The translations under genes and the position numbers were made by a program. The notes beneath the pieces are model-generated. The model had not been told where the DNA came from, did not search any database, and worked only from the letters and a program-made list of their open reading frames with translations. Shown here in pieces: positions 1 through 17,071 of a DNA stretch of 64,000 nt. This stretch comes from Pseudoalteromonas ruthenica (GTDB lineage Bacteria > Pseudomonadota > Gammaproteobacteria > Enterobacterales > Alteromonadaceae), in assembly GCF_008808095.1 (NCBI RefSeq), contig NZ_CP023397.1, forward strand, positions 248,001 to 312,000, in the 5' to 3' direction. Position 1 is the first letter of the stretch; every line of letters begins with the position of its first letter.

Positions 1-3000
1 AGCTCTTGGGGGCCTAAACTACTCAACATAGTTGAAGAGGTCGTGGCTTGCTACTTATCTGAAGTGGAAAAACTCGAGACAAAATCTTTGCTGAGTCCAC
101 AAGCCAACTTATTAGCAAATATTGGTATTGCGCAGTTTAATGATCGTGAATACATCACGCCCTATCACCCATTGACGTTAGCTTACTTTGCTCAGTTAGT
201 AACAGCGGCAAGTAGTGAAGACGATGCAAGTTTTGGCACATTACCAAGCGCCACCCTGAAAAGGCTGAATATCGAAGGTTTACTGCCTTTTGTATGGCAT
301 GCAACGCAAGGCTTTGCTTATAACCAAGCGCTAGCTGAAAATAGAATGTGGTGCGAGCTGGTGACCAACAAGGAGGCAAACCTTGATTATGTTAGGCCTC
401 TAGTTCGTCAAAAAGCCAATGAGTTCACCAAAGCCTTTGATGTGCTTTTTAACCAAGGTGCAAAAGAAACGCTCTACATCAATTCGATCAACAATGGCGA
501 TAATACGGCTCTATTCTTAGGCCTAGTAGACTACTTGAAAAAGTATTCACCTGATCAAGCCAATCGTATTCATGTCAATCTTTACGATAAGAAGCTACAA
601 CGCACTTATTTTGACGAGTTTGCCGACGCCCCAAGCTATGACGAGCTTAAAGAGATTGCACAATTAGGAAGTGAAAAAGACAAAGCCGATGCGGTTGCAG
701 ACATGCTTAAAAACCGCATTACGTACAGCAAATTTAAGTTGGGTGATGATTTAGAAAGCTTTAATTATGCTCACATTAGCTTTGTTCGCAACGACACCAA
801 AGTAGAGCCAATTCCTGTTGATGTGCAAACTGAAAAAACGGGTGTTGCTTGTCATGGTTTGCTTGCTGGTGAAACGGCGTACAACGAGCAAAATACCTAT
901 TTTACCACTTATGGCTTAAACGGTATTGCCAGCGACGATAAGCCTAGCCTTAAGCTTAGCGGCCACTTTAACAACCTAGCTAAAGCAGCATGGAGCAGCC
1001 AAAAGTACGAAACCAATAACGGACTAGCGCTCAAAGTAGCTGGTGAACTCTCGCAGTTGTTGGAACATGTATACGATAACTCAGTATGGACGGTGATCAT
1101 TGACCCTAAAGTGACGTTAGACTTTTTTAAAGCACAAAAAGACGCAGTACTGATCCACTACTCAGATAACTTTTCTAACTCAGCAAACTATGATGCCATT
1201 ACCGTAACCAAGCGTCGTGACTTATACGACCAAGTGTTATCTCAGGGCGTAAAAGGGTTAATTGACGAGTTTAATGCCTTTAACGGCGAATGGCTGCTGA
1301 AAATGATCACGTGCAACGACAATGAGCGTAAGGAAAAGAAAAGCATTATTGGAGCCTATAAATACGTGAATTGCCTGTTACACCAAAGCGATATTACTTG
1401 GGTACCCATGAGTGTGGCTGAAATGCTACGAGTAGCAGGTAATGTGGGCTTTAAAATGAGTGAAAGCGAATTCTCTCGTTTTGCTCAGGGGTTTAAGAGT
1501 GGTGCGATTTCCGATGACGTGCTATTTGTTGGTTTCAAAGAGGGCAAAATGTACTTATTGCCACTCGAAGTCAAAATTGGCCAAAAGCGCAGTCATGGTA
1601 AAGGGGTGAAACAAGCCAAAGAGCTCAAGCGCTACTTAGTCGAAAACTTGTTTGGCCGTAACGATTTAGCTGGGCATTTATATCGTGGCCTTTTTGTGCG
1701 ACAGATTTTAATGCAAGTGGATAAGTTCGAGTTATACAAAGTCTACGCACCTGGCTATTTTGATGAGCTTAAAGCAAACCGCGCGTGGTGGCTGCAAGGG
1801 GATTACCAAGTAGCCGATTTAGCCCAGTACCCCCAAGGTTTTATGATGGCCTTTTTTGAAAATGCCGACTACGCCAAAGAAGAGTTTGTTGTTGAAGATG
1901 ACATACTGCAAATAAAGCTCCCAAGCGCCAACTTAAATAAGTTCATCAGCACGGAGTTGCAGTCGCTATTTGAAAATATTACTAGCAGCTCGCTTTGTCA
2001 TATCCCCGAAGAATATATTCTCCGTGGAGACACATCCTCGGTAATTAATGACCAAAGCGAGTCACTAGAGCCAGAAGTTGCGGCCACAGAATCTACGGCT
2101 GATGATTACGAGGTTCAACAGACTGAGCTACAAAATGTAGCGGAGGTTAAGGCTCCAATTGTGGCACCTGAGGCGGCAGTTGATGAGCCACTAAAAGTAT
2201 TGGTTGGTCATGAAATTAAAGATAACTCGCAAGTGCATTGGGAGCCCACTAATACCGCCAAGTTTATGAATACCAACTCAGGTATTATTGGCACCATGGG
2301 CACGGGTAAAACTCAGTGTACTAAGTCAGTGGTAACGCAGCTTTACCGTAATCAACACCAAAATGTGGATGGTAAACCAATTGGTATTCTTATTTTCGAT
2401 TATAAGTCTGACTACGTTGACGAGAAGTTCCTAAATACCACCAAGGGCAAAAAGTTTAACCTTCATAAACTTCCCTATAACCCGCTGAGTTTATTTGGCG
2501 ATACACCCATGTTACCAGTGCACACGGCGCGAGGCTTTTCAGAAACCATGGGTAGAGCGTTTAACTTAGGCACGAAACAGCAACTTAGACTAAGAAAGCT
2601 AATTAGCGAAGCGTATGACATGGCAGGGATCCACAAAGCGGATCAATCTACGTGGAGCAAAGCTGCGCCGACCATGGCCGATTTATGGTCGTTATTCCTC
2701 GACAGCGACCCAGCTGAAGACTCCTTATACGCTGCGCTCGAAAGCGTGTGCGAACTTGAAGTATTTGAGGATGACAACACCAAGTGCATGTCACTTTATG
2801 ACCTAGTAGACGGCATTACAGTTGTAGAACTGGCTGGTTACCCGAGTGAAGTTCAAAACTTAGTGGTAGCACTCACACTCGACTTATTCTATTCACAAAT
2901 GCAAAAGCAAGGTAAGCCCGAAGTGCAAGGCGACTTTAGGCAAGTGACTAAACTGGTGCTGGTGGATGAAGCAGACAACTTTATGTCGCAAAACTTTCCA

Positions 3001-3315
3001 AGCCTGCGAAAAATTCTAAAAGAAGGGCGTGAATATGGTGTGGGTGTGATTTTATCAACCCAAGATATTACGCATTTTAAAACCGGTGAAAACGACTATT
3101 CAGCGTACATTTTAAGCTGGATTGTGCACCGTGTGGCACAAATTAAAAACCAAGATATTAAAGGTATTTTCAATGTGGATGATAAGTCAGAGCAAGAGCT
3201 ACTGATGAAAAATATCCGCGAGCTAGAAAAGCATACCAGCCTTTATATCAACGGTGAAAAGCAAATTAAGCGTATTAAAGATAAAGCGTTTTGGGAGTTA
3301 TTGAGTGACGCCTAA
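1..3315 (+). CDS. dndH: DndH-type phosphorothioation-dependent restriction ATPase, 5' partial
   Basis: The reading frame is open from base 1, so the gene begins outside the window; the GTG at 43 is only an internal codon. About 1,104 residues are visible, against roughly 1,700 for full DndH/DptH as I recall the family. The C-terminal third is a HerA/FtsK-like P-loop ATPase. Its Walker A GTMGTGKT is encoded near 2290 and its Walker B LVLVDEAD near 2961. A charged, proline-rich linker near 2040-2200 separates it from the N-terminal region. DndF, DndG and DndH together attack DNA lacking phosphorothioate marks in hosts with DndBCDE. The stop overlaps the start of the next gene by 11 bp. DndF and DndG are presumed to lie just upstream, outside the window. 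Family call is from motif layout and context; no alignment was run. Confidence 0.82.
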   Translation, partial: SSWGPKLLNIVEEVVACYLSEVEKLETKSLLSPQANLLANIGIAQFNDREYITPYHPLTLAYFAQLVTAASSEDDASFGTLPSATLKRLNIEGLLPFVWHATQGFAYNQALAENRMWCELVTNKEANLDYVRPLVRQKANEFTKAFDVLFNQGAKETLYINSINNGDNTALFLGLVDYLKKYSPDQANRIHVNLYDKKLQRTYFDEFADAPSYDELKEIAQLGSEKDKADAVADMLKNRITYSKFKLGDDLESFNYAHISFVRNDTKVEPIPVDVQTEKTGVACHGLLAGETAYNEQNTYFTTYGLNGIASDDKPSLKLSGHFNNLAKAAWSSQKYETNNGLALKVAGELSQLLEHVYDNSVWTVIIDPKVTLDFFKAQKDAVLIHYSDNFSNSANYDAITVTKRRDLYDQVLSQGVKGLIDEFNAFNGEWLLKMITCNDNERKEKKSIIGAYKYVNCLLHQSDITWVPMSVAEMLRVAGNVGFKMSESEFSRFAQGFKSGAISDDVLFVGFKEGKMYLLPLEVKIGQKRSHGKGVKQAKELKRYLVENLFGRNDLAGHLYRGLFVRQILMQVDKFELYKVYAPGYFDELKANRAWWLQGDYQVADLAQYPQGFMMAFFENADYAKEEFVVEDDILQIKLPSANLNKFISTELQSLFENITSSSLCHIPEEYILRGDTSSVINDQSESLEPEVAATESTADDYEVQQTELQNVAEVKAPIVAPEAAVDEPLKVLVGHEIKDNSQVHWEPTNTAKFMNTNSGIIGTMGTGKTQCTKSVVTQLYRNQHQNVDGKPIGILIFDYKSDYVDEKFLNTTKGKKFNLHKLPYNPLSLFGDTPMLPVHTARGFSETMGRAFNLGTKQQLRLRKLISEAYDMAGIHKADQSTWSKAAPTMADLWSLFLDSDPAEDSLYAALESVCELEVFEDDNTKCMSLYDLVDGITVVELAGYPSEVQNLVVALTLDLFYSQMQKQGKPEVQGDFRQVTKLVLVDEADNFMSQNFPSLRKILKEGREYGVGVILSTQDITHFKTGENDYSAYILSWIVHRVAQIKNQDIKGIFNVDDKSEQELLMKNIRELEKHTSLYINGEKQIKRIKDKAFWELLSDA

Positions 3316-4188
3316 TGAATTACGTGCAGCAATATTAGGCGTTAAGCGTTGGAGCCGTGCTGATCAGCGTGCGCCTAATAAACCATTAATGATGGCTTAT
3401 GCACTCGCTAAATATATTCAAGGGCACGGTCAAATGTTTAGCTATGAAGGTGAGGTTGATAGAGACGTTTACCTTTTGCTAAAGCGTTTTGGCCCTTCTC
3501 GAAAGGCCTATCATCCTGAATATCCTTTTTGGCGTTTGGTCAATGATGGTATATGGCGTATAGACAACGCAGAAGAGTGTATCCCAAGAAGTAGTAATAC
3601 TGACGCTAAAAAATCCGAGTTAATAAAGCACCAAGTAACAGGTGGCTTTAGCGATGAGATTTTTATCAGCTACTAAAAAACGATACGCAACTAGCTACAG
3701 AGCTGTTAGAAACAATACTTTCCGAGAGTTTTCCTGAAAGTATTGTGCCTGAAATTACAACTCAACTTGGTTTAGAGTTTACTTTTAAGCAAGTTCAAAA
3801 ACGCGATCCCAATTTTAGGCGTGAGGTGCTAAATGCCTATAACGGCAAATGTGCAATTTGTGGTTTTGATGCTCGGTTGAATGATGACTTATTTGCAATA
3901 GAAGCTGCACATATAAAATGGAAACAATTTTATGGGCCATGCTCAGTAAATAATGGGTTAGCTCTTTGCTCTATTCATCATAAAGCTTTAGATAAGGGGG
4001 TTATCACAATTACACCAGAAATGATGGTTAAAGTATCAAATGCTTTAAATGGAAGTGGAGTGGTTGAAAAATTGTTCTGGGGTTTTGATAGTAAACAAAT
4101 TCAATTGCCTCGTCAGTCTAAATTTTTACCGTTAGGGTCTTATTTTGAATGGCATAGAGATAATGTTTTCAAACAAGCCAAAGCTTGA
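3305..4188 (+). pseudogene. SBD-HNH phosphorothioated-DNA-binding endonuclease, frameshifted
   Basis: Two frames together make one protein of about 293 aa. The first part (GTG at 3305, stop at 3676) is a sulfur-binding domain of the ScoMcrA/EcoWI type, with the KKSELIKH segment and the YHPEYPFWRL motif that forms the sulfur pocket region in known SBDs. The second part (open from about 3667, ending 4188) is an HNH nuclease: CxxC (CAIC), AAHI, then NNGLALCSIHH and a following Asp. The frames join at the five-T run 3660-3664. Removing two T gives an uninterrupted EIYQLL junction, which fits relatives as I remember them, and a total length divisible by three. Such enzymes cleave near phosphorothioate sites in foreign DNA, so the intact protein would be odd beside Dnd modification. 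As read, SBD and HNH would be separate peptides at best. A sequencing error is possible. Confidence 0.8.
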
Positions 4189-4235
4189 GTAGGTTTTACC
4201 AGTTAGTGTAATAATAGTTAAAAAAGGAGAACTAT

Positions 4236-4403
4236 ATGTCACCTGAGGAAATTCTTGATTCTGCCTCTCCTGAGGTTAGAGAAGTAATAATGGAAATCAT
4301 TAAAATAGAAAAAGGCTACAGGCACTATCAAAACACAATAGAAGAAAAGGAAAGGCGGATTGCTTCACAAATTCAAAAGTGTATAGAAGGTAAGGCCAAA
4401 TGA
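4236..4403 (+). CDS. 55-aa charged helical protein, first gene of the Pbe-like operon
   Basis: An ATG at 4236 follows a strong ribosome site AAGGAGA at 4224-4230. The 55-aa product begins MSPEEILDSASPEV and is rich in Glu, Lys and Ile, probably one or two amphipathic helices or a short coiled coil. Its TGA overlaps the ATG of the SMC-like gene (ATGA, 4400-4403), a sign of translational coupling. I do not recognise the family. Position suggests a small partner or regulator of the ATPase. The good ribosome site, the coupling and codon use like its neighbours make it a likely real gene. Confidence 0.72.
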   Translation: MSPEEILDSASPEVREVIMEIIKIEKGYRHYQNTIEEKERRIASQIQKCIEGKAK

Positions 4404-6442
4404 AACTAAAAACACTTACGCTTACTAACTATAGGCAATTTAACAGCGTAAATGCATTGCAATTCTCTATAGACCCTCAAAAGAACATTACTGTAATTCA
4501 CGGTGAAAATGGTGCTGGTAAAACTTCAATTCTAAATGCTTTTAAGTGGTGCTTTTACGGTGAAGTAGACTTTGACTCAGGGACGGAAAATTTACTTAAT
4601 GAGCAGTCAATAGCAGAAGCTAGTCCTGGTGACGAAGTACCGTGTGAAGTTTCTGTTAAATTTATTCATGAGAACACCCTTTATACTGCTAAACGAAAGC
4701 AACTGCATAAAAAGTATGAAGATGACAACATTGAAAAATTAGGTAGTTCATTTTTTACTTTGGAGTGGATTGATAAAGACTCTGGCGAAAAGAAAGCATC
4801 TAATAATCCTGAAACGCATATAAATCAGATTTTACCTAAATCACTTCACAGTTACTTTTTCTTCAATGGTGAAAGGATAGAAAAATTGGCTAGCTCATCT
4901 TCGTCAGGAGATATTAAACATGCGATAAAATCAATTATGGGACTTCAAATAATTGAGAGAGGCAAAAAGCATCTTGATGAATATGTGATTAATTCTTTTA
5001 GAAAAGAAATGAAATCTCATGCAAGTGAATCTGAGTTGGCTAAGGCAATGGAAATAGAAGAGAGCCTAATTGCAAAGCTGAGCAGCAAAAATGTTGAGCT
5101 GGAAAACTTGGAAAAAACACATTTGCAGTTACAAAAATCAATAAAGGAAATAGGAAACCGCCTAGAAGAAATTAAAGAATCTGCACTGCTGCAAAAAAGG
5201 CGAGATGAAATAGAAGAAAGAATTACAACAATAAGAAAAGAACTTGAAGACAACAAAGCGTCTCTTAGCCTCGAAATATCAAAGAAAGGCTTTTTAGGCT
5301 TTTTTGATAAGACTGCACAGTCTGTAAAAGATGTTCTAGACGAGAAGAGAGAAAAAGGTGAATTGCCTTATAGGATAAGAGAGCAATTTATTGATGACTT
5401 ACTAGAAGATGGATATTGCATTTGCGGAACTGATATTTCAGAAGGAACTGAAGCATCATCAATGCTTAGACGATATAAATCAAAAGCTTCTTCAAAGTCT
5501 ATGGAGGATGCATTTATAGAGCTTTCAGGAAGTCTGCAACACATAGAGCCGCAAAGAAAATCTCTATTTGATGCTATTAAGACACTGCAAGTAAAAAGGA
5601 AAAACTTAGATGCTGAAAGACATAAATTAATAGGTGAATTGGATACTATTTCGAATGATGTCGGAGTTATTGAACAAGCAGCGCATCTGGAAGAGCGAAG
5701 AAAAGGACTAGATCTACAAAAATATAAAACTATTGAATCTATTGGTGAAGTTAAGAGTGAAATTAAGAAGCTTGATGAGGAGCTAAAGGGAGCTGAAAAA
5801 TCGAGAAAAAAATTAGCTGATAGTGAACAAGTAAAGTCTGTTGTTAAAAAGAGGTTCGACATAGCAGAAGAAAGTTCAATAGTATTAGGTAAACTCTTAG
5901 AGTCATTATCCGATAGCATAAAAACTAAATTGTCTGAACGTGTTAATGAAGTATTTCAAAGCATAATCAGAAAAAACTATTGGGCCGAAATTGACGACAA
6001 CTATGCATTGCAAATATTTAAAGATATCTCTGGCAGAGGTAAACAAGTTGTAACTGAAAAGTCTACTGGCGAGAGCCAAATAACTAGTTTGGCTTTTATA
6101 TCGTGTATTGTTAGCTTGGCTAAAGAAAATGAAGAAAAGTCTAATGGCCTGGCCCAAGGTGGAATTTTTCCTATCGTAATGGACTCTCCCTTCGGTTCTT
6201 TAGATGATGATTACAGAACGCTTATAGCTAAGTACGTACCGGAGTTAGCTGAGCAAATAATCGTATTTGTATCTTCTTCACAATGGAAAGGATCTGTGGA
6301 AAATGAGTTTTCAGGGGCCGTAAACTTGCACAACAGTCTGATTTATTACTCTCCTAAACTAGAGGGAGAAGAAACAGAGTTTTTAAAAAGAAGCGAGACC
6401 TTTGAAAGGACTGAAATTAGCGAGGGATACTATGACCGATAG
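4400..6442 (+). CDS. SMC/Rad50-like ATPase of Dnd-associated restriction module
   Basis: This 680-aa protein starts MKLKTLTLTNYRQF, with Walker A GENGAGKTS near residue 35. Long coiled coils occupy roughly residues 200-290 and 370-530. A short Cys-x-Cys hinge (YCICG, about 340) lies between them and is reminiscent of, but shorter than, a zinc hook. An ABC signature-like STGESQ lies near 555 and Walker B IVMDSPFGSLDDD near 592. It resembles DndD in plan but is a separate paralogue; the locus has its own dndD at 12276-14267. It overlaps the 55-aa gene upstream by 4 bp and the next gene by 11 bp. Inference: it is the DNA-sensing or motor part of a Pbe-like exclusion module. Base composition is clearly AT-rich compared with genes after 20 kb, consistent with transfer. 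Confidence 0.78.
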   Translation: MKLKTLTLTNYRQFNSVNALQFSIDPQKNITVIHGENGAGKTSILNAFKWCFYGEVDFDSGTENLLNEQSIAEASPGDEVPCEVSVKFIHENTLYTAKRKQLHKKYEDDNIEKLGSSFFTLEWIDKDSGEKKASNNPETHINQILPKSLHSYFFFNGERIEKLASSSSSGDIKHAIKSIMGLQIIERGKKHLDEYVINSFRKEMKSHASESELAKAMEIEESLIAKLSSKNVELENLEKTHLQLQKSIKEIGNRLEEIKESALLQKRRDEIEERITTIRKELEDNKASLSLEISKKGFLGFFDKTAQSVKDVLDEKREKGELPYRIREQFIDDLLEDGYCICGTDISEGTEASSMLRRYKSKASSKSMEDAFIELSGSLQHIEPQRKSLFDAIKTLQVKRKNLDAERHKLIGELDTISNDVGVIEQAAHLEERRKGLDLQKYKTIESIGEVKSEIKKLDEELKGAEKSRKKLADSEQVKSVVKKRFDIAEESSIVLGKLLESLSDSIKTKLSERVNEVFQSIIRKNYWAEIDDNYALQIFKDISGRGKQVVTEKSTGESQITSLAFISCIVSLAKENEEKSNGLAQGGIFPIVMDSPFGSLDDDYRTLIAKYVPELAEQIIVFVSSSQWKGSVENEFSGAVNLHNSLIYYSPKLEGEETEFLKRSETFERTEISEGYYDR

Positions 6443-6872
6443 AGTAAGAAAGCCAGAAAAATATGACTCGTTACTTAAGCTACTTAAAGATGAAGAAAAG
6501 GTATTTTCCTCGTACAAAGATATTTTAGTTTTTGCAGCATGTTTAGCTAAATCTAGAGGACAAATAAGAGAGCAATTTTCTAAATCGTCAGAGCCGATTC
6601 CAATTCATGTGTTTAATGGTGAATTTGATATAGCGGTAATGAACAGTATTGCTATAACAGAGCCAGATGAGTGCGAAGTACATTTTTTGTCAGATGACAA
6701 TCACGATAGAAAAGTCCTAATCTTTGAAGAATATGCGGCAGCAGGGTTAAAAATTATTAGTGAAGAAGTTTTAGATAGAGGAAAGAGCATTCTAGACTCT
6801 TTCGTCGAGCTACTAGCTGATGAAGAAGCTGATAGCAGCGTTATCGATGATATATCCTCTTTAACACTGTAG
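6432..6872 (+). CDS. DNA phosphorothioation-associated protein 4 homologue
   Basis: The chosen start is ATG 6432 (MTDRVRKPEKY), inside the end of the SMC-like gene (11-bp overlap). The open frame reaches back to 6402 but without a better start. The 146-aa product is soluble and has no recognised catalytic motif. Its length, the opening RVRKPEKY and the segment LVFAACLAKSRG match my memory of the family named 'DNA phosphorothioation-associated protein 4', seen only next to dnd genes. It sits 8 bp before the sigma/alpha-CTD-like gene, in one operon. Role unknown; position between two large DNA-binding proteins suggests a complex subunit. Confidence 0.7.
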   Translation: MTDRVRKPEKYDSLLKLLKDEEKVFSSYKDILVFAACLAKSRGQIREQFSKSSEPIPIHVFNGEFDIAVMNSIAITEPDECEVHFLSDDNHDRKVLIFEEYAAAGLKIISEEVLDRGKSILDSFVELLADEEADSSVIDDISSLTL

Positions 6873-6880
6873 GCGGAAGT

Positions 6881-9664
6881 ATGAGAAAAACATTTAAATT
6901 TTCTCCAGCAATTATTCATGTAGATAGAAGAGGTAACGAAGTAAACGGACGTATTGTTTACAATATTCCTTTTCAAGAAGCACTCTCACTGTTTCCTTTT
7001 ACATTCCGTAAAAATGAAGGCTACTTTGTTACGGAAGAGGAATTCCAGAATTTTGAGAAAAATAATCCCACGGATGCAATTGAGTTTTGCATTCAGGAAT
7101 TAAATGTGGATGATGTATGCACTCCTCAAGAATCAGCTACCAATAATAATCAAAAACAAAATACCTGCGTTCAGAGCCATAATCCTGAATCCATAAGGGA
7201 AGATCTTATTCCTAAACTCAAGGAACTATTAGACTCTAACTTAGTGTCATGCTCTGTCAGAACGGCAAACATCATTAAAATAGCATTTGCCAACCAAACT
7301 ACGCTTTATAGTGACGAGCTTACCCAAAACATTAGAACAAAGTTTGCTAACTGTGGTGAAAAGTCAGAAAAAGAAATCAGGGCATTAATTTCAGAATATG
7401 ACTTAAAACAGGATCTTATTGGAAATCATCAAACATACGATGAACTTGATGATGACATGGATTTGATGCCCAAACTACTAAACCTCATAGAACAAAAAAA
7501 AGCTACTTGCTCGGTAAGAACGTCAAATATCATTAAAAATGCCGTAGAAGCCCATAACACGTTATTTAAGTCAGACCTAAGCGGTAGTTTCAAATACAAG
7601 TTTGCTCATTGCGGAAGAAAGTCGGAAGAAGAAATAAGAAACTTAATAGACGAGCACATTACTTCAGGCATTGAAAATGATGGTTCATCTTTTATTTCAG
7701 GTTGCTTTACCCAGGACTTATTAAACCTAAAGCCTGTGAAGGATGATAGGTTTTTAGCCTCTCTTTTTAGACTCTACCCCTCGGATCTGCGTTTACCTAA
7801 ACTTATAGAAGAAATAATTTCTAACGCCTTTAATAGTGCTCCGAATTTGGCTTATTGCCAATATTTAGTCCTTAAAGACCTAATTTTGAGTGATTCAAAA
7901 TTTATAAATATAAATTCTGAAGAGATCACTGTTAATACTTTTAGAGAAGCTTTAGAAGACATATACAAGCTAAACTCTGCTGAAGAAATCAAATTGGAAT
8001 TGTCAGACCTGTTAAATGGTGTGTGCATACAAGATTCGACATATAAACAGATCGAGGCCATATATCTAGCTCAACTAGACACAATCCGTAACTGCGACAT
8101 TTCAGACTACCAAGCGTTGAGAAAGCTCATACCAGAGGCAGTTTTTAAAAATGAAAGAGGAGTTGGTTGTATTGTAGGACGATTATTAGCCACAGAAAAA
8201 TTGACTCTTGAGGAGTTAGGTGAGATTTACGGAGTAACCAGAGAAAGAATTAGGCAAATTGAAAAAGCCACAACAAGCAAATTACTCCTATCAAAAACAG
8301 CGTATTGCTGGCTTTTACTTGAAATGTTTTTGTCCAGGCAAAGTGAATATTTAAAGAAGTCATTAGCAATAAAATCTGGAATCATTCATAAAAATCAAGT
8401 TGAAGACCTATTTGAATCATTTCCTAGCTGGGTTAAAAACCTATTAAGAATAAAGGATGGCTATCAAAGTGCCTTAAGTGCAGTTAGCACACGTCGTAAT
8501 GATTTCTTCGTTTTAGAGAACTTCTTTGAGTATTACGAAAGCAAAATAGAAAATTCAGCTTGGTTTAAACATATTTGTGAAGTTCTATCATTAACTCATA
8601 CAACTAATGCTGAAATAAAAAGTTTAGCGCCTTTTTTAAGCGAAGAAGCAATTACTTTTTTTAAATCTAATAAGCAGACGTTATCTATAGAAAAGTCTAT
8701 AGAAGATATTTGTGCTAGCGTTGTTAACTTTCACGGATATCCGATGAAAATGGAAGAGGTCTATTCTAAGTATAGTGATGAAGTCCGTGACCCCAGAGAT
8801 ATGCGGACTGTGGCTAATATTATTATGGACTCAGAGCAGTTTTTGATAATGGATCGTGGGACGTACGGAACATATGATATTTTACCTTTTAAAGGTGATG
8901 TCGTTAAAAGGATTCGTGATTTATCTTTTAGTCATCTTAGCTCAAACCTTGAAAAGAAATATATTTCAGCGGCCGACTTGCATAAGATATTATCTAGTCG
9001 TGTTGCTATAGATAAAGTGTCCCGATATGCCATATATGGCATATTACAAGACGATAAGAGGTTTTATTGTCATCGATATGGACTGAAAATTGGCCTAAGC
9101 AGTAACTTCTCAGAAAGTGATTTGATCGCATTCGGAGAAATTTTAACTAACTCTTTGTTGAAGTGTGGGCCTTTGTCTGTAAAAGACATGCAAATTCAAG
9201 CGAATCAAATAGGAGATTATCACGACCAAACTATAGTTACAGAGCTTGCGCGAAGTAACCATATTGTAAGGTTAGAACGTGGTTTATATGGCTTAATTGG
9301 TAAGCATATAAGTATCTTAGACTTAGCCTGTGCTGAATATATTAGCTTGTTTTATTTACAGAAAAAGAATAGAACAATTCATTTTATATTGGAAAAAATA
9401 GAAAAGTTCCACAAAAAGTTAGAGTACGAAACTCTATTAGACTACCTAAGAAAGAATTCAGTTAACATTGAAGTTTCCGATGACTTTTTGAAAATAACTA
9501 GTCCTATTGAATTAAGCTCTTGGACTCCATCTTTCCACGCAATTTCAAACCTATCAGAAATTCAAAGTCGCATTAGAGAAATCCATAGAGAATTGACGCT
9601 ACAAGACGATCAGGAAGACGAAGGATTAAACTCTTCAGCAATAATTAAGGAGTTAGGGTTTTAA
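6881..9664 (+). CDS. 927-aa Dnd-associated protein with alpha-CTD-like repeats and sigma region 4-like HTH
   Basis: Two tandem internal repeats of about 64 residues are visible, roughly 109-172 and 195-258. Each has CSVRT(A/S)NIIK, a spacer and then CG(E/R)KSE(K/E)EIR(A/N)LI. The pattern matches the C-terminal domain of RNA polymerase alpha (LSVRSAN ... GKKS-x-x-EI), a DNA-binding fold. Near 441-470 lies LEELGEIYGVTRERIRQIEK, typical of sigma-70 region 4, which reads -35 elements. The rest is helical and not recognised. It starts 8 bp after the previous gene and its TAA overlaps the next ATG by one base. The domain reading is by eye. Inference: it recognises DNA for the restriction module rather than directing transcription, since no sigma region 2 is seen. 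Confidence 0.72.
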   Translation: MRKTFKFSPAIIHVDRRGNEVNGRIVYNIPFQEALSLFPFTFRKNEGYFVTEEEFQNFEKNNPTDAIEFCIQELNVDDVCTPQESATNNNQKQNTCVQSHNPESIREDLIPKLKELLDSNLVSCSVRTANIIKIAFANQTTLYSDELTQNIRTKFANCGEKSEKEIRALISEYDLKQDLIGNHQTYDELDDDMDLMPKLLNLIEQKKATCSVRTSNIIKNAVEAHNTLFKSDLSGSFKYKFAHCGRKSEEEIRNLIDEHITSGIENDGSSFISGCFTQDLLNLKPVKDDRFLASLFRLYPSDLRLPKLIEEIISNAFNSAPNLAYCQYLVLKDLILSDSKFININSEEITVNTFREALEDIYKLNSAEEIKLELSDLLNGVCIQDSTYKQIEAIYLAQLDTIRNCDISDYQALRKLIPEAVFKNERGVGCIVGRLLATEKLTLEELGEIYGVTRERIRQIEKATTSKLLLSKTAYCWLLLEMFLSRQSEYLKKSLAIKSGIIHKNQVEDLFESFPSWVKNLLRIKDGYQSALSAVSTRRNDFFVLENFFEYYESKIENSAWFKHICEVLSLTHTTNAEIKSLAPFLSEEAITFFKSNKQTLSIEKSIEDICASVVNFHGYPMKMEEVYSKYSDEVRDPRDMRTVANIIMDSEQFLIMDRGTYGTYDILPFKGDVVKRIRDLSFSHLSSNLEKKYISAADLHKILSSRVAIDKVSRYAIYGILQDDKRFYCHRYGLKIGLSSNFSESDLIAFGEILTNSLLKCGPLSVKDMQIQANQIGDYHDQTIVTELARSNHIVRLERGLYGLIGKHISILDLACAEYISLFYLQKKNRTIHFILEKIEKFHKKLEYETLLDYLRKNSVNIEVSDDFLKITSPIELSSWTPSFHAISNLSEIQSRIREIHRELTLQDDQEDEGLNSSAIIKELGF

Positions 9665-11733
9665 TGAGTTTTAAAAAACTAAAACTGCCTTATTCAATTA
9701 AAACGACTAAAGAAAACCCTAACGATTCGCTTTTTGAACCTCTTTTAAGCAATTCATTATCTTACAAGGTTGCTGTAGGTTACTTTTCATCGAAGTGGAT
9801 AAAGGATGTAGCAGAAGGAATCGCCAACTTAGCTTCGAATGGAGGTAAAGCATACTGGCTTATATCTCCACAACTTTCTAAATCCGACTATGAAGCCCTA
9901 ATCTCAGGAAGTAATAGTGACTCATATAGAGAACGAATTTTTAAGCAGAGTTTTCAAGAGCTATATTCGTCTTTAAAAGATGATACTTTAGCTGCTATTA
10001 GCTGGTTAATTGCTGATGGAATTCTAAATTTTAAAATAGCAATACCATGCAATAATCTAGACGGTATCATGCACGCCAAAATGGGGGTTTTTGAAGACGA
10101 AAATGGTAATAAAGTTGCCTTTTCAGGATCGTACAACTTAACTGGAGCTTCAAAAGGAAATTGGGAACGAATTGATATCTTTACCTCTTATTCCAGTGAA
10201 GAATCTGAAGCCAGACTCAAAGATATAGAAGTTGACTTTGATGAAATGTGGGAGGGAAAAGATAGCAACCTAAAAGTATATACGCCTTCGGATGCGTCGT
10301 TAGCACCTTACATAGAGTTTACTCAGTTGAACCCCAGGCCCTACCGCTTAAAGATGAAGTATTCAATTCCCAAGCATTTTCTAGACGATAATGGGGAGCT
10401 GAGAAGCTATCAAACAGACGCTGTAAACAGATGGTTTAAGGCGAATGGGAGAGGTATATTTTGTATGGCTACAGGAGCGGGAAAAACGGTGACCGCTCTC
10501 TCCGCCGTGACGAAACTCGCAGCACACACAAACAGTAAAAATAGCACTTTATTCGTTTTAATCGTTGTTCCTTATACCCACCTCGCAAAGCAATGGTGTA
10601 CAGAAGCAGAAGCATTTGGATTTAGCCCAATTAGATGTTTTGGTGGAGTTACAAAGTGGGAAGGGCAACTTGTACAAAGTTTAACTTCTTCAATTATTCA
10701 GCATTCTGGCGTCACCTTAGCTATATGCACTAATGCCACCTTTACCTCTAATTCATTTAGGCGGTTTGATACGTATTTCAGCAAAATGCCGTCCTTATTG
10801 GTTGCAGATGAGATGCATAACTTAGGTTCATCTGAAGGATTAAAAAGGCTACCAAATACTAGTCATTATAGGCTTGGATTATCCGCAACTCCCCATAGAC
10901 ATAATGACGAAGAAGGCACAGATGCACTATATAAATACTTCGGAGATGAGGTTATAAACTTTACTCTTGAGGACGCAATAAATAATAAATGTTTAACGAA
11001 ATACTTTTATTGCCCAACACTCATCGAATTTACAGATGAAGAATGGGAAGACTATAAAGAACTTTCACGTCAAATTTCAAGGTTGATTAATTTCGGAAAA
11101 AATGGAGAGGTGAAAGTTTCAGAATTAGCTAAAACTCTTCTTTTAAAACGAGCTAGATTAATTAACTCAATGGAAAATAAATACAAAATTTTTTTTCAGC
11201 AAGTACGAGACGTTGGTTTAAAAAAGCACACTCTAATTTATGTAGGTGATACTAGTGAGGGAGATCTAAGAGCTGTTGAATACGTGGTAAAAGAATTAGG
11301 CACAACCTATGGTGTTCCATGTAATAAGTTTACAGCAGAAACGGACTTAGACGAGAGAAGTGCCTTATTAGACAACTTTGATAAAGGGGAAACCGACGTC
11401 ATTGTTGCGATTAAGTGCTTAGATGAAGGTGTAGATGTTCCATCAACCCAACATGCCCATATATTAGCTTCTTCAACAAATCCTAGAGAATATATTCAAA
11501 GAAGAGGCAGGGTATTAAGAAAATCCCCAAATAAAGAGTTCGCTTATATACATGACTATATTGCAGTTCCTCCAAATTTTGATATGGATGGCTTCTCACC
11601 GGAAGATTTAAAAATATTTAAGAATTTATTTAGAAGAGAGTTGGCTAGAATCGAAGAGTTTGCTCAGCTAGCTATGAATTATGGGGATACCTTAGAGCTT
11701 TTTTCCAGCATTAGGAAGAAATTTGATATTTAA
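9664..11733 (+). CDS. PLD-nuclease/SF2-helicase fusion, Dnd-system restriction enzyme
   Basis: The 689-aa product has an N-terminal phospholipase D-like nuclease domain with HAKMGVFEDENG at about residue 137 and a following SGSYNLTGAS, the HxK...GS-N pattern. A superfamily 2 helicase follows, with motif I MATGAGKT (about 267-274), motif II DEMH (about 382), motif III LSATPH and motif VI QRRGRVLR (about 615). This layout matches the database family called 'DNA phosphorothioation system restriction enzyme' and many type III/DISARM-like helicase-nucleases. It is the last gene of the + strand operon, with TAATG overlap to the gene before. Inference: it unwinds and cuts DNA without the expected phosphorothioate marks. 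The catalytic residues all look intact. Confidence 0.82.
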   Translation: MSFKKLKLPYSIKTTKENPNDSLFEPLLSNSLSYKVAVGYFSSKWIKDVAEGIANLASNGGKAYWLISPQLSKSDYEALISGSNSDSYRERIFKQSFQELYSSLKDDTLAAISWLIADGILNFKIAIPCNNLDGIMHAKMGVFEDENGNKVAFSGSYNLTGASKGNWERIDIFTSYSSEESEARLKDIEVDFDEMWEGKDSNLKVYTPSDASLAPYIEFTQLNPRPYRLKMKYSIPKHFLDDNGELRSYQTDAVNRWFKANGRGIFCMATGAGKTVTALSAVTKLAAHTNSKNSTLFVLIVVPYTHLAKQWCTEAEAFGFSPIRCFGGVTKWEGQLVQSLTSSIIQHSGVTLAICTNATFTSNSFRRFDTYFSKMPSLLVADEMHNLGSSEGLKRLPNTSHYRLGLSATPHRHNDEEGTDALYKYFGDEVINFTLEDAINNKCLTKYFYCPTLIEFTDEEWEDYKELSRQISRLINFGKNGEVKVSELAKTLLLKRARLINSMENKYKIFFQQVRDVGLKKHTLIYVGDTSEGDLRAVEYVVKELGTTYGVPCNKFTAETDLDERSALLDNFDKGETDVIVAIKCLDEGVDVPSTQHAHILASSTNPREYIQRRGRVLRKSPNKEFAYIHDYIAVPPNFDMDGFSPEDLKIFKNLFRRELARIEEFAQLAMNYGDTLELFSSIRKKFDI

Positions 11734-11882
11734 ATCAGTGCGGCTACAAGTCATAAAGGGAGTTGTATGCAACATGCGAAGAACGACTCGCAACACCTAG
11801 CCCAAATTAAACTGGTAGTGACAGCTCGAAACGGGTAACTGCCAGACAAAATCTGAGCTGGTACAACTTAAAAGTCACATAC

Positions 11883-11908
11883 TCACCTGTGAGGTGGTTA
11901 AATTTTTT
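11883..11908 (+). terminator. possible weak terminator between converging Dnd operons
   Basis: CACCT and AGGTG pair across a 3-nt loop, with a run of six T shortly after. The stem is short and the T run is not adjacent, so this is weak. The 192-bp gap separates the helicase gene and dndE, which converge; I see no gene in it. Confidence 0.3.
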
Positions 11909-11925
11909 GTTATGACTAATCTATT

Positions 11926-12276
11926 CTAGAGTGCGTTAATTAATGTTCTAAGCTCACTTTGATTTCTTAAAGCAGATACCCCATCCTCAACATGCGCTGC
12001 CCAAGCGGTTTGTAATTCTTTATCAGAGTACTCAGGGTAGCGCTGTTTTAGGAGCAATTCAGTCACTTTCTGGGTCTTACCCAGCCAAGTGTGTTTATCA
12101 AGTTTTAGGCTACCAGAGAGTTTATAGTCACTTTCTTTATCAAACATAAAGCCTTTCTCTACAGAGCGGAAAAAGGCAATGCGGGCCGCAATATTGGGAG
12201 TCACCCCAGTTTTGGCTTTTAAGTTGTGTAGCTGATCTTCAACTGACTTTTTAAGCCACATGGTCTGTGGGAGCAT
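11926..12276 (-). CDS. dndE: DNA phosphorothioation protein DndE
   Basis: The 116-aa product begins MLPQTMWLKKS and contains TPNIAARIAFFRSVEKG, LDKHTWLGKT and QTAWAAHVEDGVSALRN, all strongly conserved in DndE. DndE works with DndC and DndD to install sulfur in the DNA backbone; it binds nicked DNA in the studied enzymes. The start ATG overlaps the dndD stop by one base, so it is translationally coupled as the last gene of dndBCDE. Length is normal for the family. Confidence 0.93.
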   Translation of the reverse strand: MLPQTMWLKKSVEDQLHNLKAKTGVTPNIAARIAFFRSVEKGFMFDKESDYKLSGSLKLDKHTWLGKTQKVTELLLKQRYPEYSDKELQTAWAAHVEDGVSALRNQSELRTLINAL

Positions 12277-14267
12277 TATACTGCCTCCTTTGCTAACTCA
12301 GCCCAAAAGTACCCTTCCCGCAAGGTTGAGCAGCTGGTTGCCTGGTTAAATTCGATTTCAAACGCGTGTGACACTTGGTGCTCAATGGCATTGTAAAAGT
12401 CTTGGTCTACTTCGGTGTCGGTTGAAAGCAGTATCACCTGCTCACTGGCTTCTGGGAAGTAGTGTTTAATTAACTTATCGCGGTGCTTAGAATCGAGCCT
12501 TCCGAGTGGAGTATCCACAACCACAGGCAGTACTTTTCCAGAGAGCTTACCGAGGGCTTCAAGAATAGCAAAGGCAAAGATTTGCTTTTCACCCGCCGAC
12601 ATCGATTTGCGATTAATCACCGCGCCTTGGGCGTCTACCAAGTTTACATCAAAGTTTTGCGGGTCAATTTTAGCCGATAGTTTAAGATCTTCTTTGCGGG
12701 CAAGCTTTCGGTATGCGGTTACAAAAAGCTCTTCTAATTGAGTAACCCTAAGCTTGGTTAACGCGGTTTTAAAGTCATCCAGCACATATTGGCTTTGCTG
12801 TACGCGATGTACGGCTTTATCGGCTGAGTGGTTATTTTTGAGCTTGGCATAGAATTTTTCTAAGCGCTTGGCTAACTCTAGCTCTTTGGTTTTAAGCGTT
12901 TTAGCCTTAAGCAGCTCGCTGATATATTCTTTGCTCACGGTATCACGTTCTTTTTCCAGTGCACGCAGGCCTTCGTACAGCTCTTTTAAATCGGCGGCAT
13001 CCGGTGCACGCTCAATATTAATAGACAGTGAACTAAGTTTATCTTGTACTTGCTCAAGTGCTGTCGATAGCTCTTTCAGTAAACGCTGCGACTGTTGGCC
13101 TTCTTTAAATTGTGCTTGGATTAAAGCAAACTCTGAGTCAGAAATATCAAGCTCTGGGCTAGCCATGCCATATTCGGCGGTTAGTTGGCCAAAGTAGCTA
13201 TTGATGGTGGCCATAATATCGCTAGATTGTTCATCAAAGTCAGCTGCAATTTTATCCTGTAGTGCAGGCAGCGCTTGGTTAAGCTCGCTGCCAAAAGCCT
13301 TCGCTTGCTTAATCTTTTGATCTTCACTGAGCTGATCAATTAACCCTTGCATGGCATTAGGTGCAAGCGCCATCGGCAAAGTACCGCTGAGCTCATGACG
13401 AATTTTGCTAGTGAGCTCTTTTTCTAGCTCGTACAAGTCGTTAATTTTTGCTTGCTCTTGCTCTTTGGTTTCAGCCCACGCGCCACCTTGGGATTGTATT
13501 TCAGCTTCTTTATTAGCGATTTTACTCTTAATATCAGTAAGAATACTGCCAAGTTCGTCGATTTTTACCCGGGTTGCCTCAACATCACGGGTAATGGTGC
13601 GTTTTTCATCTTCGGCAGCCTGGATTTTTTTACGGGTATCTTTGTCTGCTGCTTCTGCGCCTAAGCCTTTGAGGTAGATATCTAAATCGGTATTTAAGCG
13701 ATTAATGATGTCGATACCCAGTAGCTTTTGCACCGCCTCTTTAAGGTAGGTGCCGGTGTCATCCTCAGCAAGCTCTGCGATTTTCTCACCATCGAAGAAA
13801 AATAGGTCACCAATTCCAGGGGGAACTAACTCATGCAAGAACGCTTGAACTTGGTCGTTTGTTAGTGCTTCATCTACCACACCATTCACTTTAAGCGTTA
13901 GCTTTTCTTCGCTCTCGGCCTGCCACGTACGAGTGATTTCGTATAGCTTATGCTCACCTTGATGGGTATGAGTGAAGCTGAGCTTGATAGCGGCCTCGGC
14001 ATTTGGGTCTTCTTTTGTTGCAGCGTTATTGGTTTGCTCATTTAAATACGCTTGGTAATCTTTTTTGGTGATCACCGTGCCTAAGGCTCGTCTGCCTAAT
14101 AATGCCAAGCGAATGGCCGTTAAAATTGAGGTTTTGCCAGCACCATTTAAGCCACCAAACAAAATAATAGGGCGTTCAAACACCCCTTGTTTACGGGGCG
14201 TCAACTCAATGGTGGTTTCGCCATTAAAAACACGGAAGTTATTTAGGGTGAGTGTTTTGAATATCAT
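12276..14267 (-). CDS. dndD: DNA phosphorothioation ATPase DndD
   Basis: A 663-aa SMC-like ATPase with start MIFKTLTLNNFRVFNG, Walker A GGLNGAGKTS near residue 40, central coiled coils (about 200-300 and 380-500), signature region KSMSAGEKQIFAFAI, and Walker B PVVVDTPLGRLD. DndD is thought to supply ATP-driven DNA opening or nicking for sulfur insertion. It overlaps dndC by 4 bp and dndE by 1 bp. It differs clearly from the second SMC-like gene at 4400-6442, so the locus carries two members of this superfamily with separate jobs. Composition is less AT-rich than the facing operon. Confidence 0.93.
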   Translation of the reverse strand: MIFKTLTLNNFRVFNGETTIELTPRKQGVFERPIILFGGLNGAGKTSILTAIRLALLGRRALGTVITKKDYQAYLNEQTNNAATKEDPNAEAAIKLSFTHTHQGEHKLYEITRTWQAESEEKLTLKVNGVVDEALTNDQVQAFLHELVPPGIGDLFFFDGEKIAELAEDDTGTYLKEAVQKLLGIDIINRLNTDLDIYLKGLGAEAADKDTRKKIQAAEDEKRTITRDVEATRVKIDELGSILTDIKSKIANKEAEIQSQGGAWAETKEQEQAKINDLYELEKELTSKIRHELSGTLPMALAPNAMQGLIDQLSEDQKIKQAKAFGSELNQALPALQDKIAADFDEQSSDIMATINSYFGQLTAEYGMASPELDISDSEFALIQAQFKEGQQSQRLLKELSTALEQVQDKLSSLSINIERAPDAADLKELYEGLRALEKERDTVSKEYISELLKAKTLKTKELELAKRLEKFYAKLKNNHSADKAVHRVQQSQYVLDDFKTALTKLRVTQLEELFVTAYRKLARKEDLKLSAKIDPQNFDVNLVDAQGAVINRKSMSAGEKQIFAFAILEALGKLSGKVLPVVVDTPLGRLDSKHRDKLIKHYFPEASEQVILLSTDTEVDQDFYNAIEHQVSHAFEIEFNQATSCSTLREGYFWAELAKEAV

Positions 14268-15889
14268 GATATCCCCTCCATGTTCAATAGCTTATTAAGC
14301 TGTTTGAGTTCGTCCTCTAGGGCCTTAACTTCATTACTTTGGCGCATTTGGCTTTGCCTGATCTCTAAGTTGGAGGCGATGATTGCTTCGGCACTTTCCC
14401 AGTCTTGCTGGATCAGGCGACCGATACGGCCAAAAATACCGGTACGGCGGGCGAGGCCACTCATCTCACGCTCCACATCAATCAGCTTTCTGATCATATG
14501 TGCAGAAACACCATATTGTGGCGCAAGCTTATTTATCAGCTCGCCTTCTGTTAGACTGAACTGGTTGGCATCATCAATGGTCCAGTCTAGTTCAATGCCG
14601 AGCACCTCTCTTACGATGTTTGGCAAAGAGTCTTCCCAGTCGGGTTCGTTCGGGTCGTTTAACCACTCATGCCTCACCGCATGAAGCTCGGGCACGGTAA
14701 TGAGCTCCATATTATGGCCTTGGTCATTAAAGCGTTTTTGCATTGTTAGCAACATGCGCATTGCTAGCTTTCGGTACTCTAAAAGATACGGGCCCGTAGT
14801 GTAGTCGTCTGTAAGTACACGCTCTTTATCTTCTTTAAGAGTTTTAAACGCTAAGCGGCCGTCACGGCGAATATGGTTCCGGTATTTCTTTTTTAACTTT
14901 GGCGATGTGCTGCGAGAAAGAATATTTCTAAACTTGAGTAGCGGCTCCATCCATTGTTCACCGTTCTGGATTAGGCTTTCCATTGCTCTATCTTTGGTGA
15001 CTACAGTACATGTCCAACACCCAAAGCGTGAGTTGCCACATGACGGTGTGGTTTCGTCTATGACCAGCGGACACTCGCCTTGGCCTGATGAATCCTTATA
15101 TAAATTCCATAATGTTAGGTTCTTGCCACCCCATGGCGCTTCCCACTCTAGGTCGTACTTATCGAACCACTTGTTACGCGTGCCATACGGGCCTTCTTGA
15201 GTTTGAAGGTGGCAAAGGCGTAGTATTTTCCATACATCATCAACGCTCCAGGTATCGATAGGCGTATAAATGAAAGCGTTGGCGAGTGTGGTATGCACAG
15301 CTAAATCTGAACCATCAATTTTGTGCTTTTTTATCACTTGAGCACGTGAGGCACTCTCTTGCGAGCGAGACCCAAGCACCACAATGACTTCATCATATTC
15401 GCTAACGCGCTCTTTGATAAACGTGCTTACAGGGTCTATTTTCATGCGCTCTGTACACCAACGGAAATTACGAGTTGGCGCGGGATAGCCTTTGCCTAGC
15501 AAGTTAGCCCAGAAGGTATTGTTAGATTTAGGTACAACTTTGTGCGATGTGATCGGTAAGCCTTCGCGTTTTGCACCCTCTTCTATAAGTTTAAGAGACT
15601 TATTTACATGGTCGACGACCATAGGAGTCTCTACCAGGGTGTCTGATGCCACAACAAACACCGGCTTATGGCGATCTTCTGGCTTTAGACCAAGCAATGC
15701 GAAATAGACTAAGGTCATGACTGCTGATGAGTCTTTACCACCACTGTAACCTATTACCCATGGGCGTTTATCGGCCATATACACACGTTGTGTGTCGGCG
15801 ACAAATTCACTTAGTTGGCGTCCTGAAAATTTCTCTTCTTCGATAAAGTCGATGTAATCATCTAAATCGAACTGGTTTAATAATGTCAT
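14264..15889 (-). CDS. dndC: DNA phosphorothioation sulfurtransferase DndC
   Basis: The 541-aa product has the PP-loop ATP pyrophosphatase motif YSGGKDSS (residues 48-55), as in PAPS reductase-type enzymes. Cysteines at about 273, 284, 291 and 294 (the latter three in SCGNSRFGCWTC) are candidates for the iron-sulfur cluster reported for DndC. DndC activates and transfers sulfur to the DNA backbone. It overlaps dndB and dndD by 4 bp each. No cysteine desulfurase gene (dndA) is adjacent; many bacteria with dndBCDE use a chromosomal IscS instead. Confidence 0.94.
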   Translation of the reverse strand: MTLLNQFDLDDYIDFIEEEKFSGRQLSEFVADTQRVYMADKRPWVIGYSGGKDSSAVMTLVYFALLGLKPEDRHKPVFVVASDTLVETPMVVDHVNKSLKLIEEGAKREGLPITSHKVVPKSNNTFWANLLGKGYPAPTRNFRWCTERMKIDPVSTFIKERVSEYDEVIVVLGSRSQESASRAQVIKKHKIDGSDLAVHTTLANAFIYTPIDTWSVDDVWKILRLCHLQTQEGPYGTRNKWFDKYDLEWEAPWGGKNLTLWNLYKDSSGQGECPLVIDETTPSCGNSRFGCWTCTVVTKDRAMESLIQNGEQWMEPLLKFRNILSRSTSPKLKKKYRNHIRRDGRLAFKTLKEDKERVLTDDYTTGPYLLEYRKLAMRMLLTMQKRFNDQGHNMELITVPELHAVRHEWLNDPNEPDWEDSLPNIVREVLGIELDWTIDDANQFSLTEGELINKLAPQYGVSAHMIRKLIDVEREMSGLARRTGIFGRIGRLIQQDWESAEAIIASNLEIRQSQMRQSNEVKALEDELKQLNKLLNMEGIS

Positions 15890-16971
15890 GTGTTCAGCAA
15901 TTCTTTTTCTTTAGCCAGCTCTTCAGCTGAGGGCGTTAAGCCTATTTGTTTTTTTATTTCTATGGCTGTCAAAAATATGTTTGATACCGCTTTGGAGAGT
16001 CTGCCGTGATTCATTGCACGGTTTTTCCAAGCAGGATTCGCTTTACGCCAGTCTATTGTCTGCAGCTGATTGTAACATTTACTTTGGTGCGACTCACTGA
16101 GTTTCAATAAGTCATGCCCCACTATGGCTAGTGCTTGCAGGCCGATACCATGTGCGCAGATGTATTCTTGACGAAGCTCAGCTGCTGAAAGCTGTTTGTT
16201 TTGTACTTGCAGCCACTCCGGCATATATTGATTGAGTTTACGCCAAAACGAGACGGCAACTTTCCTTTCTGTTTCACTAAACCCTTCTTTGGTGCCTTTA
16301 CCAAACAGTGCTTTATTAGCTTGTTTAATACCGCTCAGTGTAAATAACTTACTACTTTTTGAGGCTATTGTAGAACGCTCAAATTCGGTGAAGCCGATGA
16401 ATGGCTCACATTCGAGGGCCAAGTATCGTGCTAATTCCGCTGCTTGATCTCGATGATCATAGAGAGTGGATAATGAAGCGCTCGGTCTTACTGCATATTT
16501 ATTTAAATCAGCAAACATTTGCTGGCTTCGCTTTAAACCTTCATCAACAAAGAATAAAACGGCGATATTATCCTGGCATAGCTCGGGGCGCTCTTTAATC
16601 GCCTCTTCGATGGCCGCTCGACGATGTTGACCATCATTAATTAGTATTTGAGCATCCATGGGCACTTTGAGCATACCCAAATTACTGCTGGAGTCGGCAG
16701 CGACAAAGCTCACCTCGGCACCTACTGAGGCGGTAATAGCCGAAAAAACATAATCTTTTGGTGAATCGACCAGGTATTTGGCCATCTCCGGAATACGATT
16801 TTTATTTAAAGTACGTTGTGCGCGAAGCTCTACAGGCACTTCTTCCTCATCATAAACAAAGATTCTAGGGATTAATCGTAGAGGGCAGGTAGCTATATAG
16901 AAGGGCTTACCAGCTTGCTGTCCACGCACAGCTGGAAAGCTATAACTGTAGTTATTATCGAGATCACTCAT
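15886..16971 (-). CDS. dndB: DndB, DGQHR-domain regulator of phosphorothioation
   Basis: The 361-aa protein carries the defining DGQHR motif at residues 113-117 within ILINDGQHRRAA. DndB is dispensable for modification in studied systems and acts as a negative regulator that binds its own promoter region. It is the first gene of dndBCDE, overlapping dndC by 4 bp. The 100 bp before its ATG contain stacked ATTAC/GTAAT palindromes, a natural place for autoregulation. Confidence 0.93.
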   Translation of the reverse strand: MSDLDNNYSYSFPAVRGQQAGKPFYIATCPLRLIPRIFVYDEEEVPVELRAQRTLNKNRIPEMAKYLVDSPKDYVFSAITASVGAEVSFVAADSSSNLGMLKVPMDAQILINDGQHRRAAIEEAIKERPELCQDNIAVLFFVDEGLKRSQQMFADLNKYAVRPSASLSTLYDHRDQAAELARYLALECEPFIGFTEFERSTIASKSSKLFTLSGIKQANKALFGKGTKEGFSETERKVAVSFWRKLNQYMPEWLQVQNKQLSAAELRQEYICAHGIGLQALAIVGHDLLKLSESHQSKCYNQLQTIDWRKANPAWKNRAMNHGRLSKAVSNIFLTAIEIKKQIGLTPSAEELAKEKELLNT

Positions 16972-16994
16972 GTTGATGAACTCTATTATTGCAA

Positions 16995-17026
16995 ATTACG
17001 TAATATTATTACGGTAATTACGTAAT
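16995..17026. promoter_or_regulatory. palindromic operator cluster in front of dndB
   Basis: The 10-bp perfect palindrome ATTACGTAAT occurs at 16995-17004 and 17017-17026, with centres 22 bp apart, about two helical turns. Between them 17008-17018 has the same arms with one extra central base (ATTAC-G-GTAAT). The cluster lies 24-55 bp before the dndB start, where a promoter is expected. DndB is known to bind its promoter, and the TACG/CGTA half-sites resemble the reported Salmonella motif, but the spacing differs. Binding by DndB is inference. Confidence 0.6.
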
Positions 17027-17071
17027 AACTCCAGTCTTTTTTGTTGTTCGCGTGAAATAAAATAGGGGCAC

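Follow-up and report, generated by a model that had tools for sequence, protein, structure and literature searches.

Organization of the locus

This analysis concerns a phosphorothioate (PT) defence locus of Pseudoalteromonas ruthenica, contained in a stretch of 64,000 nucleotides (NZ_CP023397.1, positions 248,001 to 312,000) that is called the window below. The host genome comprises two contigs, and the window lies within the smaller one, of 848 kb. In such systems DndBCDE puts a PT mark on DNA and DndFGH nicks unmarked DNA, and archaeal Pbe is PT-dependent. The convergent Dnd locus occupies positions 1–19117, with dndFGH, an SBD-HNH endonuclease gene and a Pbe operon on the + strand facing dndEDCB on the − strand. 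Profile searches bear out the first-pass annotation of this DNA, which had described dndBCDE facing dndH, an HNH gene and a five-gene AT-rich Pbe-like operon, and three PT-linked modules do stand together in one locus.

The restriction genes begin before the window, in 4.6 kb of preceding DNA that holds dndF and dndG as whole, open frames upstream of dndH, together with the start of dndH itself. In profile searches of this DNA, DptF scored 549 (cut-off 50) and DptG 309 (cut-off 20). The full dndH frame starts in the 1770 bases preceding the window and encodes 1694 amino acids (aa) with no internal stop; its C-terminal part (1104 residues; 1–3315, +) matches TIGR03237 with 804 bits against a cut-off of 621, which confirms that the first gene is dndH. 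Homologues of DptF, DptG and DptH are present in order, with frames intact. The modification genes form one cluster in which each product exceeds its curated cut-off: dndE (11926–12276, −; TIGR03184, 90 against 72), dndD (12276–14267, −; TIGR03185, 500 against 246), dndC (14264–15889, −; TIGR03183, 514 against 290) and dndB (15886–16971, −; TIGR03233, 457 against 328). The CIC zinc-hook motif is absent from this DndD. No cysteine desulfurase (DndA) gene was seen among the open reading frames (ORFs) of the cluster; host IscS was not searched for.

The space between dndH and dndE, termed the slot here, opens with the SBD-HNH gene in two pieces. The SBD half (3305–3676, +) overlaps dndH by 11 bp and covers NF045808 positions 2–115, while the HNH half (3745–4188, +), in a different frame, covers positions 145–284 and matches PF13391. 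In the sulphur pocket of the SBD half, Lys, Tyr and Pro are kept and the His position carries Asn. The gene is uninterrupted in the relatives G018, G033 and G064, where a single frame encodes 290–291 aa, and the SBD and HNH folds are seen together in one protein of an intact relative. The frameshift reported in the first pass stands insofar as the halves occupy two frames; whether it is biological is less certain. The ratio of nonsynonymous to synonymous substitution rates (dN/dS) of the halves is 0.04–0.12 in five of the six comparisons with finite dS, with no relaxed selection, and a second gene of the window, encoding a GH114 glycoside hydrolase (33343–34165), is likewise spread over two frames, which bears on assembly quality. 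For these two reasons the split may be either recent or an assembly error.

The remainder of the slot is filled by the Pbe operon (4236–11733), ordered B-C-D-SigX-A, with a GC content of 0.34–0.40 against 0.43–0.46 in the dnd genes. Its first, pbeB-like gene (4236–4403, +) encodes 55 aa; no profile matches the PbeB-like protein, and each of the 11 pbeC copies, the window's among them, is immediately preceded by an ORF of 55–63 aa. The pbeC gene (4400–6442, +) encodes a CxC ABC ATPase of 680 aa (PADLOC PbeC, 874 bits) with the CIC zinc-hook motif common to all 11 PbeC rows. The next product, of 156 aa (6402–6872, +), lies above the TIGR04062 cut-off (90 against 74) and has no PADLOC match; it is assigned to PbeD by size and place, and a comparison of the PbeD and DndE profiles gave a probability of 0.14% on shallow alignments. 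The fourth gene (6881–9664, +) encodes 927 aa with alpha-CTD-like repeats, a sigma-70 region 4 (PF04545) and tandem winged helices, and its predicted model contains sigma4 and winged helices. The name SigX was coined for it in this analysis. The last gene, pbeA (9664–11733, +), encodes an HKD nuclease fused to an SF2 helicase, with H-A-K-x5-D, GSxN and helicase motifs and 733 bits against PADLOC PbeA, yet its TIGR04095 score of 517 bits is below the cut-off of 600.

SBD-HNH genes beside Dnd in related genomes

SBD-HNH proteins above the NF045808 cut-off were found in 4 of 108 Pseudoalteromonas genomes, and three more (G510, G773, G678) in 295 genomes of the window's family. Each gene follows dndH, with a gap of about 1.2 kb in G510, and all seven genomes have DndC. 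In the Vibrionaceae (family f21), 10 of 246 genomes carry SBD-HNH at an E-value of 1e-30 or better, again all with DndC. At order level, 394 genomes gave 22 matches, accompanied by DndC in G000, G872, G907 and G978; in the other 18, from families f18 and f207, no DndC exceeded the cut-off, the weak hits being 28 bits in G863 and 25 bits in G982.

The arrangement of dndFGH, slot and opposing dndEDCB is shared by the window, G018, G033, G064, G068, G070 and G097. A further 14 DndC-positive loci were fetched with their flanks, and 13 of these have DndFGH followed by an SBD gene and then by convergent dndEDCB. DndFGH was not seen in G1193, where the contig ends, nor within 22 kb in G978, and in G1121 dndH lies about 2.7 kb from the SBD piece. 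In several relatives the slot also holds DGQHR genes, in some cases together with membrane genes. SBD-HNH is thus a regular gene after dndH in the sampled marine Gammaproteobacteria and not an anomaly.

Counting 19 DndC-positive genomes and G097, 20 Dnd-side loci are available, and SBD-HNH is intact in 14 of them, with open frames of 289–324 aa. Among seven intact Dnd-side genes, dN/dS is 0.08–0.19 in the 10 of 21 pairs with finite dS, values that are rough because dS is high. Broken or cut genes occur in 5 of 19 DndC-positive genomes (G000, G978, G1121, G1174, G1193) against 5 of 18 DndC-negative genomes at order level. These figures do not support the idea that an SBD-HNH enzyme next to Dnd has to be silenced to avoid self-destruction. 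As a separate observation, the DndC-positive genome G177 (locus L092) carries three SBD-HNH copies in tandem.

In a maximum-likelihood tree of 33 proteins, one branch (95/87) parts 15 Dnd-side rows from 18 others. The two groups also differ in the pocket. His116 and Tyr164 belong to the sulphur-pocket lining of ScoMcrA; the changes H116I and Y164I are reported to cut binding by 94% and 89%, respectively, and Tyr164 touches bases as well (PMC6224610). SprMcrA is reported to bind PT with Tyr31-Gln32 in the pocket (PMC7470945). At the Tyr164 position, all 18 DndC-positive rows have Tyr, against Met or Leu in 17 of the 18 Dnd-free rows that could be read; one further row was unreadable. Asn stands at the His116 position in 8 of the 18 DndC-positive rows and in none of 18 Dnd-free ones. 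Context, tree and pocket residues together show the Dnd-side proteins as a lineage of their own, one apparently compatible with Dnd.

Pbe loci and the SigX protein

A genome scan with PbeC gave 10 loci; one with a match of 55 residues was dropped, which left nine related Pbe loci. In seven of these (L019, L022–L027) the fetched DNA contains dnd modification genes, so the five-gene operon does have a link to dnd in other genomes. Within the 12.7–17.7 kb fetched, no dnd gene was found in L021, and only a 64-residue start of dndF, before pbeB, in L020. This fragment (L020 5276–5467, metagenome-assembled genome (MAG) NORP105) corresponds to residues 1–64 of a dndF-like frame, lies just upstream of the pbe cassette and is perhaps the trace of a lost dndFGH. 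The nearest of the PbeC loci belongs to the window's own genus, in Pseudoalteromonas shioyasakiensis JCM 18891 (G097).

SigX directly precedes PbeA in five of the nine related loci (L019–L023), in both gene orders, with A before or after BCD. In the homologue from L021, PF03118 also exceeds its cut-off. Other Pbe loci have a TerB-like gene in the exact position of SigX, and in Thalassomonas sp. M1454 SigX-type domains are fused to an SBD within one protein (SBD plus SigX-like stretches). No description of SigX was found in the papers and profile models consulted.

Three further arrangements may be recorded. In Thalassomonas sp. M1454 (L026 6716–14794), two tandem Pbe B-C-D sets surround a single TerB-PbeA pair, which resembles a rearrangement intermediate. 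Between Pbe and a DGQHR-like gene, Psychromonas marina (L027 12555–16655) carries a gene for an HSP90-like ATPase as well as an SBD-only gene. The DndH of G064 (L120 5117–12472) is 2451 aa long and contains a sigma-region-4 insertion that matches SigX 324–472.

Probable exchange of modules at the slot

Identity between the window and P. shioyasakiensis changes sharply along the locus. It is 0.59–0.83 over dndFGH to about position 2750, 0.89–0.94 up to the SBD start, and 0.93–0.99 from 4250 to about 12000 (0.95–0.99 per 250-base bin between 4500 and 12000), and it drops to 0.66–0.82 in dndE-B. These values suggest that a single block comprising the dndH end, the SBD-HNH remnant and Pbe was recently shared. 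A Pbe block 95–99% identical inside flanks of 59–83% agrees with the earlier proposal that such loci swap readers. The SBD-HNH gene of P. shioyasakiensis carries a different lesion, a deletion of about 620–630 bp that leaves only 40 SBD codons. G064 shows the opposite pattern: its SBD-HNH and the one in G018 are 89% identical and its dndBCDE are of the common type, but the adjoining DndFGH has only 29–31% identity.

The state of SBD-HNH is associated with Pbe. The gene is not intact in four of four loci with Pbe nearby, namely the window, P. shioyasakiensis, G1174 (a Photobacterium MAG with Pbe beyond dndB) and G978 (Psychromonas marina), where the SBD alone is present. Of the 16 loci without Pbe, only two (G1121 and G1193) are not intact. 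The one-sided p is 0.003, rising to 0.010 with the two Pseudoalteromonas loci taken as one and to 0.022 in the harshest merging tried. Overall, the comparison supports the view that Pbe behaves as a moving cassette and that the slot is a place of effector swap.

Proposed mechanism and its alternatives

These observations can be joined in a model in which the Dnd locus consists of a fixed restriction part and a swappable slot, where Pbe supplants SBD-HNH and DndFGH stays. We give this reading a probability of about 0.5. In the fixed part, DndBCDE would mark host DNA, presumably helped by a cysteine desulfurase of the host, as the cluster lacks dndA, and DndFGH would nick unmarked DNA. In most marine relatives, the slot that separates dndH from the opposing dndE holds SBD-HNH, in many cases along with a membrane protein and a second DGQHR protein. 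The Dnd-side SBD-HNH probably reads PT in another way or context than the orphans that cut PT. By analogy, it is most likely a PT-sensing helper nuclease that takes the place of the unrelated DndI of Salmonella. In the window and P. shioyasakiensis, a mobile Pbe cassette would have entered the slot and SBD-HNH decayed. PbeBCD may scan DNA, and SigX, paired with PbeA, may act as a DNA-docking subunit that takes this helicase-nuclease to invader DNA.

Several points weigh against this model. The shared block has no sharp left edge, as the end of dndH is conserved in any case: the final 0.5 kb around that end reaches 0.69–0.89 identity with G018, G033, G068 and G070, all without Pbe at this place. 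The association with Pbe comes from four non-independent loci, two of which share one cassette, while in G1174 Pbe lies outside the slot; the three broken f21 genes belong to one related group. Absence of Pbe was checked genome-wide only in G018, G033 and G064; for the others the check covered 16.5–20 kb to either side, and a single side in G1193. The Dnd-side and Dnd-free proteins are separated by a single phylogenetic split, so that the residue difference counts as about one event rather than many, and the distant G150, which lacks DndC, has Tyr at the pocket position. The docking role of SigX is deduced from its domains, and a transcription regulator would look the same. The mechanism as a whole is read from sequence, context and family knowledge.

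The model of the first-pass annotation, in which an ordinary PT-dependent restriction enzyme arrived in the Dnd locus by chance and was frameshifted off for attacking its host, is very unlikely. It accords with the split gene of the window and the mostly deleted one of P. shioyasakiensis, and assayed relatives do cut PT DNA (PMC7461809, PMC6224610). Its premise that SBD-HNH cuts marked DNA holds for those assayed enzymes, but the one of nine enzymes that comes from close to dnd clusters is reported to have low activity irrespective of PT (PMC7461809). The 14 intact copies of 20, their low dN/dS, their own lineage and a breakage as frequent without Dnd (5/18) as with it (5/19) all oppose it. 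A related possibility is that SBD-HNH truly cuts PT, is aimed at foreign PT DNA of another sequence context, and coexists with Dnd because the contexts differ. The retained SBD fold with its Lys, Tyr and mostly Pro pocket residues would fit, as would the difference at the Tyr164 position; it appears rather unlikely nonetheless, since SBD-HNH is a regular member of the locus and in G064 stays by the modification genes although the DndFGH there is of a different type; this suggests that it works together with the resident mark. If instead the split is an assembly error, the gene of the window would be intact and all three readers live. Both halves retain the pocket and HNH residues inspected and show no relaxed selection, and the split GH114 gene points the same way. 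This explanation is nevertheless judged improbable, because about 620–630 bp of this gene are missing from the sister locus that carries the same Pbe block, more than any single-base error explains, although that is another genome.

For SigX, the alternative is that it merely regulates transcription of the pbe operon and is no part of the effector. Its sigma-region-4, alpha-CTD-like and winged-helix domains are all DNA binders of the transcription type, as this would require. The idea is somewhat doubtful because SigX adjoins or overlaps pbeA and accompanies it in either gene order, because a TerB-like gene takes its place elsewhere, and because SigX-type domains are fused to an SBD. A bolder proposal, which we consider highly speculative and very probably wrong, is that the sulphur reader is being taken over in Pbe loci: HNH would be shed, SBD or a fused form would stay, and SigX, as a protein made up of modules for promoter recognition, would serve to dock PbeA, either to promoter-like DNA or to a transcribing polymerase. 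SBD remnants do occur in Pbe loci, as the SBD-only gene of Psychromonas marina, the SBD-SigX-like fusion of Thalassomonas sp. M1454 and the free SBD frame of the window, but P. shioyasakiensis keeps only its 40 codons. If true, a PT defence would find invaders by their promoters and spare self by sulphur.

Relation to known systems

The stacking of PT modules as such is already known, since HNH proteins with an SBD-type domain, plus an SRA domain, are reported in Dnd loci of 698 taxa, and Pbe and DndFGH in the same genomes (PMC10853773), with 25 strains listed that have pbeAC, dndFGH and PT genes (PMC6459918). SBD-HNH near dnd has been judged rare, under 3.6% (PMC7461809). What the present comparison adds is different. 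The supposed paradox of a PT cutter next to PT-making genes becomes a testable split within one family at a known sulphur-pocket residue, effector cassettes would be exchanged at a fixed slot of the Dnd locus, and Pbe systems gain a candidate sigma-like partner of PbeA. Together, this would contribute to an explanation of how PT-based defences can be combined without host killing.

The operon resembles PbeABCD of Haloterrigena jeotgali A29 (PMC6459918), re-annotated as a CxC ABC ATPase system (PMC10853773), in its HKD-helicase PbeA, CxC ATPase PbeC, small PbeB-like protein, PbeD-like protein of about 150 aa and dnd neighbours; it differs in its order (B-C-D-X-A instead of A-B-C-D), in the extra sigma-like gene next to A and in a complete co-resident DndFGH, although co-residence of this sort has been reported before. 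As in known DndFGH/DptFGH systems, all three subunits adjoin dndBCDE and exceed curated cut-offs, but here dndH is followed by the overlapping SBD-HNH gene and then by Pbe. ScoMcrA, SprMcrA and EcoWI (NF045808) share the SBD and HNH folds and most pocket residues with an intact relative, whereas the Dnd-side lineage has Tyr where Dnd-free proteins have Met or Leu, partly Asn for His, no room for an SRA domain, and in the window a split.

DndI, a PT-sensing HNH nuclease encoded by an extra gene of the dndFGH operon (IscS-DndBCDE-DndI, PMC11662687), is comparable to SBD-HNH in operon position and probable logic; it is a DUF262-DUF1524 protein, and no sequence kinship is claimed. A DndH variant with a sigma-type helix-turn-helix (PMC10853773; here G064) likewise places a sigma-region-4 module in a PT restriction protein, and that module matches SigX 324–472, but there it is an insertion in DndH, while SigX is a separate, Pbe-linked protein.

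Neighbouring genes and other loci

Beyond dndB, a Dnd-associated putative methyltransferase gene (17072–19117, −; TIGR04096, 599 against a cut-off of 150) closes the locus and adjoins dndB in relatives as well. The Pseudoalteromonas genome G023 (L035–L037) has two dnd loci, with the DndF or DndH match in several pieces. Finally, a dGTPase-like HD gene stands beside several dnd loci, on differing sides: at 19329–20783 in the window, 3–1295 in L122, 65–484 in L123 and 14781–16223 in L036.

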